Source of the DNA: Armatimonadota bacterium
GTDB taxonomy: Bacteria > Armatimonadota > Armatimonadia > Armatimonadales > Armatimonadaceae
Assembly: GCA_014381035.1 (NCBI GenBank)
Contig: JACMIS010000402.1
Location: forward strand, 1-9,277
DNA length: 9,277 bases
Reading direction: 5' to 3'
The position numbers and the translations under genes were made by a program. This document shows positions 4,857 to 8,626 of this stretch, piece after piece. Numbering within the stretch: the stretch's first letter is position 1; each line of letters starts with the position of its first letter. The notes under the pieces were generated by a model, which worked only from the letters and a program-made list of their open reading frames with translations, was not told where the DNA came from and did no database searches.

Positions 4857-5549
4857 TTACAGTCTTAAAACGGCATCAGTTCCCATCGCTGTGACCGTTT
4901 TTCGGGAAATGTCGTCTCGTAGTTTAGTCAGGTCAGAGGGCGTATCTATGTCGTACCACGGGGGTAGAAGTGCGGCACGGACGCCCAGAGCTCGGGCGCG
5001 TTCCCGCGAAGCAGTCAATACATCGGGACTACTCCACGGGATATTCTGGAACAGTTCGGGAATCAGGCGGTTCATGCCGACCAGATAATAGCCTCCGTCA
5101 TCTGCCGGTCCCCAGACGACATCGGTGTCGGGCGACGCAAGACGCGAGAACGCCTCCACAACGAACGCGAGCGGCAGGTGCGGGGTGTCGCTCCCGATGG
5201 CGCAGACCGCACGGGTGCCAGGGATGGCAAACTGCGCGGCGAAAAGTCGGGTCAACCGTTGCCCGAGATCGCCGTTCCCCTGCGCGACGGTAAGAAGCAA
5301 TGACGCCGACGCGGGTAGATCCGCGGGATCGCCATCGAGTGCGAGAACGACACGGGCGGGCAACAGCGGATGCTTCAGGAGAGCGCACGTGTCCTCAAGA
5401 AACGCGGACGCGAGTTTCACCACACACTCCTCCGGCACACCGGGCGAGGCGAGACGTGTTTTGACACGCCCGACGACCGGTGATTTGGTGACGAGAATCA
5501 GTGCGTTGCCAGTGTTCCTACGTTTCTGAACTGTATCTGCGGACCGCAT
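4857..5549 (-). CDS. TIGR04282/DUF2064 family glycosyltransferase-like protein
   Basis: A 230-residue, single-domain GT-A (nucleotidyltransferase-like) protein. Motifs in order: K22-S-P-x-x-G-R-V-K-T-R-L33 (nucleotide-binding loop), G91-NGDLGQRL99, G119-SDTPHLP126 (metal-binding acidic motif), G147-PADDGGYYLVG158, W172-SSPDVLTAS181 and Y199-DIDTPSDL207. These are the hallmark blocks of the rSAM/selenodomain-associated transferase 1 family, whose substrate is not well established. Length is normal. The first 14 residues are extra relative to the usual start near the ALILVTKSP strand. ATG 5549 lacks a Shine-Dalgarno and no alternative ATG/GTG/TTG precedes the conserved motif, so I keep it. It heads the dense operon and may be preceded by the 75-residue gene. 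Confidence 0.87.
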   Translation of the reverse strand: MRSADTVQKRRNTGNALILVTKSPVVGRVKTRLASPGVPEECVVKLASAFLEDTCALLKHPLLPARVVLALDGDPADLPASASLLLTVAQGNGDLGQRLTRLFAAQFAIPGTRAVCAIGSDTPHLPLAFVVEAFSRLASPDTDVVWGPADDGGYYLVGMNRLIPELFQNIPWSSPDVLTASRERARALGVRAALLPPWYDIDTPSDLTKLRDDISRKTVTAMGTDAVLRL

Positions 5550-6002: not shown

Positions 6003-6031
6003 TTGACACCACGCCTATCAGGGTTTATACT
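6003..6031 (+). promoter_or_regulatory. Near-consensus sigma-70 promoter driving the arg cluster leader
   Basis: TTGACA (6003-6008), a 17-base spacer, then TATACT (6026-6031): 6/6 and 5/6 matches at the ideal spacing, the best promoter in the window. The predicted start is near A6038. The gene downstream in the same direction is argC at 6312, so the transcript would carry a leader of about 270 bases. Confidence 0.75.
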
Positions 6032-6040
6032 GCTCCTACT

Positions 6041-6133
6041 ATGTTCTGCGAAAATGAATCGTGCGATTCGCTTCGCCGCCGCGTCCGTCGCTTCCGTTTC
6101 GGGGTCACGACGCAAGGAGTGCGCGAAGCATAG
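6041..6133 (+). CDS. Putative arginine-rich leader peptide (30 aa) of the arg cluster
   Basis: ATG 6041 to TAG 6131-6133. The peptide begins MFCENESCDS, and residues 11-21 are LRRRVRRFRFG: Arg at 12, 13, 14, 16, 17 and 19 (six of eight consecutive codons, all CGC or CGT), with a seventh Arg at 28. An Arg-codon run upstream of argC and before a terminator is what ribosome-stalling attenuation would need. Caveats: the start is only about 3 bases from the predicted transcript end, so translation would be essentially leaderless. A second frame from ATG 6054 (29 aa, MNRAIRF...) overlaps it, and the CGC-rich DNA also gives it some Arg. The stop is 69 bases before the antiterminator strand, farther than in classic trp or his attenuators. 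Confidence 0.5.
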   Translation: MFCENESCDSLRRRVRRFRFGVTTQGVREA

Positions 6134-6248
6134 ATCGCATTAAAAACCGGAAGTCGTGACCCTACCATCAGTGCCGCAAGTCGAAATGCGGCGCGAGAAA
6201 GCGTTGTGTCGCGGAAATCGGTGCAGAAAGCAGATACGTTTTAGAGCA

Positions 6249-6297
6249 AGCCGGACACAACGACCGATCAAGCGGTAAGTTGTGTCCGGCTTTTTTT
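6249..6297 (+). terminator. Strong intrinsic terminator immediately upstream of argC
   Basis: Arms 6249-6261 and 6279-6291 form a perfect 13-bp stem, with an inner 4-bp stem (6263-6266 with 6273-6276) in the loop, followed by seven T (6291-6297). It ends only about 15 bases before the argC ATG and no other protein gene of normal size precedes it on this strand, so it most likely controls argC read-through. Confidence 0.9.
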
Positions 6298-6311: not shown

Positions 6312-7382
6312 ATGAGTGAACGAATACCAGTAGCGATAGTCGGGGTGAGCGGGTACGCAGGCGGCGAACTGGCACGCCTATTGTCGCGCCATCCGGGTGT
6401 CGAGATCGTGGCGGCGGTTTCAGAGACTTACGCCGGGAAACCGCTGAAAGCATCGTTTCCGGGGCTGGCGGGATCGTCGGTCGGCGAAATCGTCTGTGAG
6501 GGCGGCGGGGTGGACGCGCCGGGCGTCGCACGGGCGGAGGTCGTATTTCTGGCACAGGAGAGCGGCTTCGCGATGCGGAGCGCACCAGCACTGATCGCAG
6601 TGGGCAAAGGCATTGTAGATCTCTCCGCGGATTTTCGGCTACGCGATCTGTCCGTATTTTCCGCGTTCTACAAATTAGAACATACCGCGCCGGAACTGTT
6701 CGCGGGAAGCACCGTCGCCTACGGGTTGCCGGAGCGAAACCTCGCCGCGCTTCGTCAGGCGCGTCTGGTCGCGAATCCCGGCTGTCATGTCACGGCGGCG
6801 ACACTCGCGCTCGCACCACTCTTAGAGTCAGGAGTGATCGAGAAACGCGGCATCGTAATTGACAGCAAGACCGGCGTTTCCGGTGCGGGGCGGGCGAAGA
6901 ACGACCTGTTGTTCAAGTTTTCGGAGGCGAACGAGTCGGTCACCGCCTATGGCGTCGGCGGCACGCACCGCCATACCCCGGAAATCGAGCAGACATTGTC
7001 GGAAGCGGCGGGCGAACCGGTAATAGTGACGTTCACACCGCACCTGATCCCCATGACGCGGGGTATCCTTTCGACATGCTATGGACAACAAACGCGACCG
7101 GGGTCGGCGATGAAACTAACAACGATTTTACGCGACGCCTACCGCGATGCACCATTCGTAGTCGTGCGCGACGCGGGCGACCAACCGAAAACCAAGGATG
7201 TACTCGGCTCTAATTACTGCCACCTGTGTGTCGCCGTGGATGAGCGCACCGGAACAGCGATTGTCACCAGCGCGTTAGACAATCTGGTAAAGGGCGCGGC
7301 GGGTCAGGCGGTACAGAACATGAATATCCTGCTCGATTTATCGCAAACGGCGGGACTGGAGGGCGCGGGATTATGGCCGTGA
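6312..7382 (+). CDS. argC: N-acetyl-gamma-glutamyl-phosphate reductase
   Basis: Third step of arginine biosynthesis: NADPH-dependent reduction of N-acetyl-glutamyl-5-phosphate to the semialdehyde, in the cytoplasm. From ATG 6312 the protein has 356 residues, normal for the long (type 1) ArgC. Motifs: nucleotide-binding I9-V-G-V-S-G-Y-A-G-G18; D103-LSADFRL110; catalytic Cys in N155-P-G-C158; T187-GVSGAGR194; H219-RHTPEIEQ; a C-terminal GAAGQAVQNMNI block. Two sites vary: NPGC is followed by His-Val rather than the common Tyr-Pro, and the usual LPHG-like block reads LAQESG. ATG 6303 (adding MKI) is an in-frame alternative. Starts farther upstream fall in the terminator and are rejected. No clear Shine-Dalgarno is seen. 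Expression is probably controlled by the leader. The 3' end overlaps argJ by 10 bases. Confidence 0.95.
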   Translation: MSERIPVAIVGVSGYAGGELARLLSRHPGVEIVAAVSETYAGKPLKASFPGLAGSSVGEIVCEGGGVDAPGVARAEVVFLAQESGFAMRSAPALIAVGKGIVDLSADFRLRDLSVFSAFYKLEHTAPELFAGSTVAYGLPERNLAALRQARLVANPGCHVTAATLALAPLLESGVIEKRGIVIDSKTGVSGAGRAKNDLLFKFSEANESVTAYGVGGTHRHTPEIEQTLSEAAGEPVIVTFTPHLIPMTRGILSTCYGQQTRPGSAMKLTTILRDAYRDAPFVVVRDAGDQPKTKDVLGSNYCHLCVAVDERTGTAIVTSALDNLVKGAAGQAVQNMNILLDLSQTAGLEGAGLWP

Positions 7383-8626
7383 GTAGTAAAATAGACAGTG
7401 GGCAGTGGGCAGTGGTCCGTGGTGGAGTCGTTGCTGCAAAAGGGTTTCAGGTGGCTGGGGTGCGTTGCGGGATCAAGCGGAAACGGCGCGATATTTGTTT
7501 GCTGGTCTGTGAAAAGGGCGAAGCGGCGGCGGCGGGCGTGTTCACTACCAATGTGGTGCGTGCGCCCTGCGTGGATTGGAGCGAATCGCGACTCGCGGCG
7601 AAAGGTTCCGCGAAGGCGATTGTCGTGAATGCCGGAAATGCGAACGCGGGGAATGGCGATCCTGGGGAACGCGATAACGCGCAGATGGCGCAGTGGGCGG
7701 CGGACGCGCTCGGGGTGTCGGTAGATTCCGTAATGACGGCATCCACCGGCGTTATCGGGACGCCGCTCCCGATGGGGATCATCGCACAAGGGATCACGGA
7801 TGCCGCTCAACATCTGGGAGAATCGGCGGAAGCTGCGGCAGAAGCGGCAGAGGCGATTCTGACCACGGATACTTTCGCAAAAGAATACGCCGTTCGACTG
7901 ACGCTCCCGGAATCCGGCGCGGTAGTCACAGTCGGCGGCATGTCGAAAGGCTCCGGTATGATCGCGCCGAACATGGCAACGATGCTCGGCTTTATCACTA
8001 CCGACGTTGCCATCTCCTCTGACGCTCTGCGTACAGCACTGGTCGCGGCGACAGCGGTGTCATTCAACTGTTTGACCGTGGACGGCGACACCTCGACCAA
8101 CGATTCCTGCTTCGTGCTGGCGTCCGGCGCGGCGAACAATACCCTGATCCTTTCGGCGAACGGCGACGATTACGAGGCGTTCCGGGACGCCTTAACCCAC
8201 GTCTGCATTCATCTCGCCAAAGAGATCGCGCGGGACGGCGAAGGGGCGACGAAACTGGTAACCGTGCGCGTGACCGGGAGCGAAACGTTCGACGACGCCC
8301 GCAAAGTCGCCAAAACGATTGCCGAGTCGCCGCTGGTCAAGACCGCACTGTTCGGAAACGATCCCAACTGGGGGCGTATTCTGGCGGCGGCGGGTCGCGC
8401 CGGGGTTCGATTCAACCCCAAAAACGCGACCGCCTACCTCGCCGGAACCTGCATCTTCGCCCACGGCACCCCGACGAAGTTCGACGCCCCCGCGCTCTCA
8501 AAATCAATGGCGGTCAAGGAACTCACGATCCACGTCGACCTCGGCGCGGGCGACGCCGAAGCACAATTCTACACGTGCGATTTCTCCTACGATTACGTGA
8601 AGATAAATGCGGAGTATCATACGTAA
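7373..8626 (+). CDS. argJ: Bifunctional ornithine acetyltransferase / N-acetylglutamate synthase
   Basis: ArgJ moves the acetyl group from N-acetylornithine to glutamate, recycling it; some family members also use acetyl-CoA. The 417-residue length fits. Motifs: A22-K-G-F25 with GVRCGIK, A53-AGVFTTN60, the NAGNANAG segment (86-93), G188-GMSKGSGMIAPN200 and the self-cleavage site M201-A-T203-M-L, where Thr203 becomes the N-terminal nucleophile of the beta chain. Later come the VDGDTSTNDS block, GNDPNWGRI and the C-terminal INAEYHT. The start codon lies inside argC (10-base overlap), indicating coupling. Residues about 8-18 are encoded by a 7-base tandem repeat. Presence of ArgJ implies a cyclic acetyl pathway; the window does not show whether a separate ArgA or ArgE exists. 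Confidence 0.95.
   Translation: MAVSSKIDSGQWAVVRGGVVAAKGFQVAGVRCGIKRKRRDICLLVCEKGEAAAAGVFTTNVVRAPCVDWSESRLAAKGSAKAIVVNAGNANAGNGDPGERDNAQMAQWAADALGVSVDSVMTASTGVIGTPLPMGIIAQGITDAAQHLGESAEAAAEAAEAILTTDTFAKEYAVRLTLPESGAVVTVGGMSKGSGMIAPNMATMLGFITTDVAISSDALRTALVAATAVSFNCLTVDGDTSTNDSCFVLASGAANNTLILSANGDDYEAFRDALTHVCIHLAKEIARDGEGATKLVTVRVTGSETFDDARKVAKTIAESPLVKTALFGNDPNWGRILAAAGRAGVRFNPKNATAYLAGTCIFAHGTPTKFDAPALSKSMAVKELTIHVDLGAGDAEAQFYTCDFSYDYVKINAEYHT
7395..7422 (+). repeat. Heptanucleotide tandem repeat within the argJ 5' end
   Basis: Four consecutive 7-base units: ACAGTGG, GCAGTGG, GCAGTGG, TCCGTGG; the middle two are identical and the last has diverged at two to three positions. It encodes residues about 8-17 (DSGQWAVVRG) immediately before the conserved GGV-AAKGF block. 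Confidence 0.7.

Follow-up and report, generated by a model that had tools for sequence, protein, structure and literature searches.

What does a short arginine-rich reading frame do in front of argC in a member of the Armatimonadota? The question is raised by a 9,277-nucleotide (nt) stretch of contig JACMIS010000402.1 (assembly GCA_014381035.1), called the window here, in which such a frame lies between a sigma-70-type promoter and the arginine synthesis genes argC and argJ. The frame very probably forms part of an Arg-specific, ribosome-mediated transcription attenuator that controls the argCJ operon; we infer the translation of the frame, the helices of the window, termination and antitermination in the cell, and the response to arginine. 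Three hallmarks of an attenuator are found, namely an Arg-rich frame behind a promoter, an arginine operon downstream and a terminator-like hairpin between the two; a fourth, the antiterminator, has support in 13 alignable relatives and is predicted in the window.

The frame consists of ATG, 29 sense codons and TAG, and encodes MFCENESCDSLRRRVRRFRFGVTTQGVREA*. Residues 12-19 read R R R V R R F R. A sequence-only reading of the window had noticed a 30-codon Arg-rich frame behind a consensus promoter; both are borne out, with Arg at six of these eight positions and promoter boxes that match the consensus at 11 of 12 bases. The ATG lies 9 nt after the -10 hexamer, so the 5' untranslated region (UTR) would be only a few nucleotides long. 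Two elements were absent from that reading: the terminator-like hairpin at 6248-6292, which a simple scan does not list and whose T-run ends 14 nt before argC, and an alternative pairing of 6202-6214 with 6251-6262. None of 200 dinucleotide shuffles folds as well as the leader RNA of the window (z -5.55). A second open frame in another phase overlaps the leader (6054-6143, ATG 6054) and encodes MNRAIRFAAASVASVSGSRRKECAKHRSH.

Recurrence of the Arg-rich frame before argC

The sequence-only reading had asked whether the ATG, the Arg codon run and the stop are kept upstream of argC in relatives. The search for such relatives started from a Chthonomonas-labelled genome (L001), whose phylum comprises 291 genomes; argC is found in 191 of them at E <=1e-60. 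Several close ArgC homologues are labelled Armatimonadetes, Armatimonadaceae or Capsulimonas, and others carry odd metagenome labels (Bacteroidia, Janthinobacterium). Together with the window, 91 argC upstream regions were examined, giving 92 regions; the 91 loci have the most window-like argC among the 191 genomes with a match and are not a random sample. Short upstream regions were kept (68 nt in L150; 246-446 nt in L091, L099, L108 and L111). Upstream DNA was inspected by eye for 31 + 19 loci; the remainder was judged from lists of open reading frames (ORFs).

A fixed rule was applied to these regions: an ATG or GTG ORF of 10-50 codons with at least 4 Arg in 8 and an upstream promoter with at least 9/12 matches, within 500 nt. 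It selects 21 of the 92 regions, compared with 0 of 92 on the reverse strand and a mean of 0.21 regions (maximum 2) in 100 first-order resampled sets of 92. In other phyla, 1 of 79 argC regions matches (L007), whether 400 nt or 500 nt upstream are taken; these 79 loci come from a contig scan that returned mainly other phyla and that also yielded L001, and two of them have less than 500 nt upstream. The match is the leader analysed here in 20 of the 21 cases, the remaining one being L159. Six leaders were accepted by eye despite missing the rule (L084, L100, L107, L114, L132 and L143). After curation, leaders are present in 27 of the 92 regions, and 26 were analysed in detail. Judged by these sequence counts, the Arg-rich frame before argC is not a product of chance. 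The comparison with relatives has thus turned out in favour of the sequence-only reading, and the Arg run is common to the leaders while the remaining peptide varies.

All 26 peptides contain an Arg-containing run; by eye they are otherwise little alike, and both length and C-terminus vary. Examples are MLCKTAFRRLRRSRFAVPAAIL (L082), MQKTQISRRRVRRPSEVTG (L087), MSFLAANNLPLRRRVRVLGNASATR (L089), MKSMDQFKINRRRRERIGL (L001) and MQAGFAIANLSARSRRRRERFGI (L110). The run is weak in L084 (PRRPQK) and L107 (RPRREH). When the promoter is picked within 110 nt, the best -35 box is an exact TTGACA in 25 of the 26 leaders and TTGACT in the other. In 11 of the 26, the window among them, the distance from the -10 hexamer to the start codon is 6-10 nt, which would leave almost no 5' UTR; it is 30-65 nt in L001, L100, L105-L108, L110, L111 and L114, and 13-28 nt in the other six.

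Codon choice in the runs is uneven. The 118 Arg codons comprise 70 CGU, 32 CGC, 6 CGA, 6 AGA, 2 CGG and 2 AGG. The CGU share of 70/118 compares with 25/317 in argC of the same loci (Fisher p 4e-28, a value that ignores relatedness), and CGU and CGC together make up 102/118 compared with 143/317; for 6 of the 26 loci only about 150 nt of argC were counted.

In 20 further argC regions from other genomes, which yield at least two more candidates, a looser promoter rule gives matches in four (L261, L270, L274 and L275). By eye, L270 and L275 have a hairpin and U-run, and L259 was noted as well. The candidate leader of L259 (G006), MFHTDTRRRRNPLG..., has its Arg codons CGC AGG AGG AGA within the 5' arm of a hairpin before a U-run, as judged by eye; a ribosome stalled there would directly block the terminator. 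L270 (G254) and L275 (G256), from genomes in which argC is more distant, have short frames that end in Arg codons (MTIVFLIAKTRVRRR and MTSALGHETRARRK); by eye, these codons too form part of a hairpin arm. In L093-L095, L097-L099 and L101, argC seems to start within about 10 nt of the -10 box (by eye); the argC mRNA looks leaderless there, and no attenuator seems to fit.

Terminator-like hairpin, proposed antiterminator and ribosome position

All 26 leaders have a hairpin followed by a U-run in the stretch from their stop codon to argC (cut-off -13 kcal/mol). The same is found in 8 of 65 regions without a leader (last 220 nt before argC) and in 29 of 130 resampled leader regions. In L001, L106, L111 and L114, the automatically picked terminator lies behind the GCCGUGGG hairpin that was used in the helix test described below.

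Leaders were assigned to classes by looking at the sequences. Leaders of the RRRRER class have CCCACG at or shortly after their end, and this stretch can pair with the CGUGGG that forms part of the 5' arm of the GCCGUGGG hairpin (alignments A2 and A5). A covariance model was built on eight argC leaders of this class; it contains the Arg-run hairpin and the terminator, and does not contain the CCCACG:CGUGGG helix. Leaders of other classes can be aligned with it. Over the 291 genomes the model recovers the eight seeds at E <=6e-16 and finds five argC leaders outside the seed (G039, G024, G023, G055 and G022; E 9e-5 to 5e-3). There are many weak matches, and 72 of the 291 genomes match at E 1.

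The helix is paired in 76 of 78 cells across 13 alignable leaders (8 seeds and 5 others), with all 6 pairs present in 11 leaders and 5/6 pairs in two. When the helix partner is slid by 1-3 columns as a control, 20-40 of 76-78 cells are paired. The pair types are compensatory (C-G/U-G/A-U and A-U/G-U/G-C), and the forms of the helix include CCCACG:CGUGGG, UCCGCG:CGCGGG and ACCACG:CGUGGU. These 13 leaders are drawn from 23 matched rows; L154, L091 and L143, which do not align there, were left out, as were seven lower rows (five antisense matches, L130 and L131). The alignment support concerns these 13 leaders; the window belongs to another leader class, and its antiterminator is a 12-pair helix predicted by folding. 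In the full-length minimum free energy (MFE) structure of the window, parts of 6074-6093 pair with parts of 6199-6223.

The effect of ribosome position was modelled as a co-transcriptional snapshot, in which the transcript is cut before the terminator 3' arm. This model replaced full-length folding after the latter had failed to discriminate; because it was chosen in this way, the shuffle control is the number to trust. In 17 of the 26 leaders the terminator 5' arm pairs upstream more with the ribosome on the Arg run than with the ribosome at the stop (Wilcoxon p 0.002); it pairs less in three and is within 0.05 in six. The mean difference is 0.159; 20 shuffled sets give 0.010 (standard deviation 0.023), with an increase in 5-12 of 26 leaders per set. 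For the window the difference is 0.44, compared with at most 0.10 in its 20 shuffles. Its 5' arm pairs upstream with a mean probability of 0.66 when the ribosome occupies the Arg run; the value is 0.22 for a ribosome near the stop and 0.20 without one. Given the last value, an untranslated window leader would terminate in this model. In the trp attenuator, an untranslated leader terminates.

Under the proposed mechanism, a ribosome would trail RNA polymerase through the 30-codon leader frame, whose start codon would be preceded by hardly any RNA. If charged Arg-tRNA were sufficient, the ribosome would pass the Arg codons and 6074-6093 would be free to pair with 6199-6223; this pairing would leave the terminator at 6248-6292 to form, and transcription would stop before argC. 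If Arg-tRNA were scarce, the ribosome would stall on the Arg run and mask it; 6202-6214, then freed, would capture the terminator 5' arm at 6251-6262, and the polymerase would read into argCJ. A number of relatives would use a simpler layout, in which the CGUGGG of the GCCGUGGG hairpin 5' arm has as its partner a CCCACG located shortly after the Arg run. The Arg attenuator that the sequence-only reading had put forward is supported by the recurrence of the frame, by the terminator-like hairpin and by the competing helix in the 13 alignable leaders.

The features of the window are collected in Table 1. The start of argJ overlaps the end of argC by 10 nt. Elsewhere in the window, the frame at 1053-1910 has an N-terminus that looks prepilin-like from its sequence; a frame at 1-807, cut by the window start, resembles it beyond its N-terminal stretch. 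No tRNA was found in the window.

Table 1. Coordinates of the leader, its promoter, predicted RNA elements and downstream genes in the window
Feature	Position	Strand	Evidence or remark
Sigma-70-type promoter (TTGACA 6003-6008, 17-nt spacer, TATACT 6026-6031)	6003..6031	+	11/12 consensus matches
Leader peptide frame, 30 codons + TAG, near-leaderless start	6041..6133	+	Counterparts precede argC in relatives
Arg codon run CGC CGC CGC GTC CGT CGC TTC CGT (RRRVRRFR), also pairing segment 1	6074..6097	+	
11-pair hairpin, 6101-6111 with 6153-6163, around the leader stop codon	6101..6163	+	Folding
Local 8-bp hairpin, 6171-6178 with 6187-6194	6171..6194	+	Folding
5' arm of the predicted antiterminator (segment 2), with a bulge at 6211; partner 6251-6262	6202..6214	+	Folding
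Intrinsic-terminator-like hairpin 6248-6292 (-30.9 kcal/mol) and T-run 6291-6297, segments 3 and 4	6248..6297	+	
argC, N-acetyl-gamma-glutamyl-phosphate reductase	6312..7382	+	TIGR01850 372 bits (cut-off 233.6); Pfam
argJ, glutamate N-acetyltransferase	7373..8626	+	TIGR00120 478 bits (cut-off 298)

ArgR, other arginine loci and Trp leaders

ArgR (PF02863) is present in 28 of the 291 genomes of the phylum. No ArgR domain (PF02863, PF01316) was found in any of 25 leader genomes, a set that does not include the window's own genome. Completeness values are not available for the genomes, which makes single ArgR absences weak and the joint absence stronger; the joint absence fits, and does not prove, replacement of the standard repressor. 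Leader scoring drew on the 191 genomes in which argC is found at E <=1e-60, a set that shares no member with the 28 ArgR genomes; the latter were therefore not scored. Since the Arg-rich frame and hairpin recur where no ArgR was detected, relatives with this layout probably sense arginine shortage through a stalling ribosome.

At the argG and carA loci of the 25 leader genomes (carA is present in 24), no such leader was found. A scan of 345 kb on both strands gave nine rows of promoter-led Arg-rich ORFs, several of them nested, and none was taken as a leader. Of the three loci tested (argC, argG and carA), the argC operon therefore seems to be the only one with the attenuator.

Of 11 inspected model matches away from argC, two are Trp-codon leaders before trpS. 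In G228 (L237, contig C144, match 29804-29897) a ..KWVWRG.. frame lies directly before trpS and the peptide is MRFVVLGVKTKWVWRGSSNSGVRPVELA; in G287 (L248, contig C3, match 4987-5095) an ..IWYWWRRLR frame lies directly before trpS and the peptide is MNELTRNDIVIWYWWRRLR. Both have a GCCGUGG terminator arm, and the identity of trpS in both genomes is borne out by TIGR00233. These are likely to be Trp attenuators built on the same module as the argC leaders. The trpS loci of 27 genomes contain, besides these two, three matches by rule alone (L287, L288 and L300); the same rule gives five matches in the argG and carA loci. A broader view is slightly less likely than not: Armatimonadota lineages without ArgR would control arginine synthesis by ribosome-mediated attenuation, through a common RNA module in which the codon run sets the specificity (Arg for argC, Trp for trpS), with many leader frames starting leaderless at the extreme 5' end of the RNA and initiation there coupled to the polymerase without a Shine-Dalgarno step.

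Competing explanations and known systems

Several results weigh against an arginine attenuator. The leader is not universal, being absent from 65 of the 92 argC regions, and the loci are related, so the counts are not independent. It is also missing at argG and carA. The window leader is not matched by the covariance model, whose sole match in the window (E 0.044) falls within argC on the opposite strand. Among eight related loci tested with the model, matches are weak on L082 (E 0.0026) and L088 (E 0.15) and absent on L083-L087, and in the run over the 291 genomes none of the seven genomes with window-like leaders matched (G018, G016, G020, G011, G019, G009 and G010). A duplex test for complementarity behind the Arg run reaches p <=0.05 singly in 8 of the 26 leaders, and p is 0.10 for the window; the combined p is 1.6e-5, uncorrected for relatedness, and the test forces one geometry on all classes, which does not fit that of the window. 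With full-length equilibrium folding and a ribosome mask, most leaders do not switch: the terminator of the window keeps a probability of 0.96-0.99 at every ribosome position, a clear drop with the ribosome on the Arg run is seen only in L085, L114 and L130, and the opposite in L089 and L090. With cut transcripts, L082 (the nearest relative examined), L106 and L143 go in the opposite direction, and the MFE structure of the window keeps the antiterminator both without a ribosome and with the ribosome at the stop; only the ensemble probabilities differ.

If attenuation is set aside, the Arg-rich frame could be a chance product of a GC-rich stretch, with the terminator ending an unrelated short transcript and argC separately controlled. 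GC-rich DNA does give CGN codons, the overlapping frame from ATG 6054 is open as well, and 65 of 92 regions do without a leader. Chance is nevertheless extremely unlikely in view of the 21 of 92 regions found by rule (0.21 resampled, none on the reverse strand), the CGU excess in the leaders and the terminator-like hairpin in 26/26 leaders versus 8/65 leaderless regions. A direct RNA sensor that works without translation would make the short frame incidental; it could be an arginine riboswitch or a T-box reading tRNA-Arg, and T-boxes regulate arginine genes in other bacteria (PMC1262725). At gathering score, no Rfam family, the T-box model included, matches the window or the leader loci of 20 of the 25 relatives; the best sub-threshold match in the window leader is a plastid intron fragment (E 0.098). 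RNA sequence and length also differ strongly between classes while the Arg-codon frame stays, and a sensor of this kind is barely credible.

The remaining alternatives keep the frame translated. In the fungal arginine attenuator peptide and TnaC, the peptide itself is the sensor; here arginine or the positively charged nascent chain would arrest the ribosome, and high arginine would set the stall. Runs of basic residues can slow ribosomes, and an Arg-containing run is found in all 26 peptides. Outside that run, by eye, the peptides are unalike and differ in length and C-terminus, and the preference for CGU and CGC points to decoding rather than to the residue, unless RNA pairing sets it. In the cut-transcript model, moreover, a stall on the Arg run brings antitermination, so that high arginine would induce arginine synthesis; a peptide sensor is highly unlikely. 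A stalled ribosome might instead alter access to the argC start or to an RNase site, by translational attenuation or mRNA decay. There is a precedent in Salmonella speF, where the two Arg codons of orf34 act via Rho, ribosome-site folding and RNase G (PMC6386406); the terminator-like hairpin with U-run, present in every leader and in few leaderless regions, makes such a route very unlikely before argC.

The preferred reading, an arginine attenuator of transcription, resembles the trp, his, leu and thr attenuators in its promoter, its short frame with codons of the pathway's amino acid, its terminator-like hairpin and predicted antiterminator that would share an arm, and its biosynthetic operon downstream. 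It differs from them in the amino acid, in a start codon only 6-10 nt behind the -10 box in 11 of the 26 leaders, and in that no ArgR was found in the 25 leader genomes. Mycobacterial cysteine-codon attenuators reportedly also have short frames that are leaderless and contain runs of the codon being sensed; they respond to cysteine and belong to another phylum. The cysS leader uORFC-8-2 of Rhodobacterales similarly has a conserved upstream ORF, regulatory codons and a terminator stem, but its codons are tandem Cys codons and it precedes a tRNA synthetase gene (PMC8632094).

Salmonella speF orf34, also a short frame upstream of its gene, senses arginine through two Arg codons; unlike the argC leader, it controls ornithine decarboxylase, via Rho, RNase G and ribosome-site folding rather than via an intrinsic terminator before arginine synthesis genes (PMC6386406). 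The domain of the orf34 leader peptide is PF10940 (PMC6386406). The window leader peptide matches no Pfam family, this domain included, and the gene downstream is argC, not speF. In Pseudomonas aeruginosa a leader peptide precedes carA of carAB, whose product serves both arginine and pyrimidine synthesis (PMC4997734). A comparison of Actinobacteria reports that their arginine operons are not preceded by conserved RNA regulatory structures; for arginine elsewhere it cites T-boxes (PMC1262725). According to a terminator-based survey, its own Firmicutes case was, ermC aside, the first leader-peptide system to be shown beyond Proteobacteria and Actinobacteria; its main text has no words starting with arginine or argC (PMC2965389). 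In the open PMC literature, no Arg-codon attenuator before arginine biosynthesis genes was found; subscription journals were mostly outside this search, and a prior description is possible.

Control of arginine synthesis is usually ascribed to the ArgR repressor; the RNA route known from other bacteria is the T-box. The selective-charging theory of attenuator codon choice (Elf and Ehrenberg, PMC1183508) could be tested on the CGU/CGC bias of the leaders, and the near-leaderless starts raise the question of how translation of the leader is launched. If the attenuator is real, arginine would join the amino acids that are sensed by codon attenuation in biosynthetic operons. The mechanism would then extend to a poorly studied phylum, and would suggest how the pathway may be controlled in lineages without a detectable ArgR.
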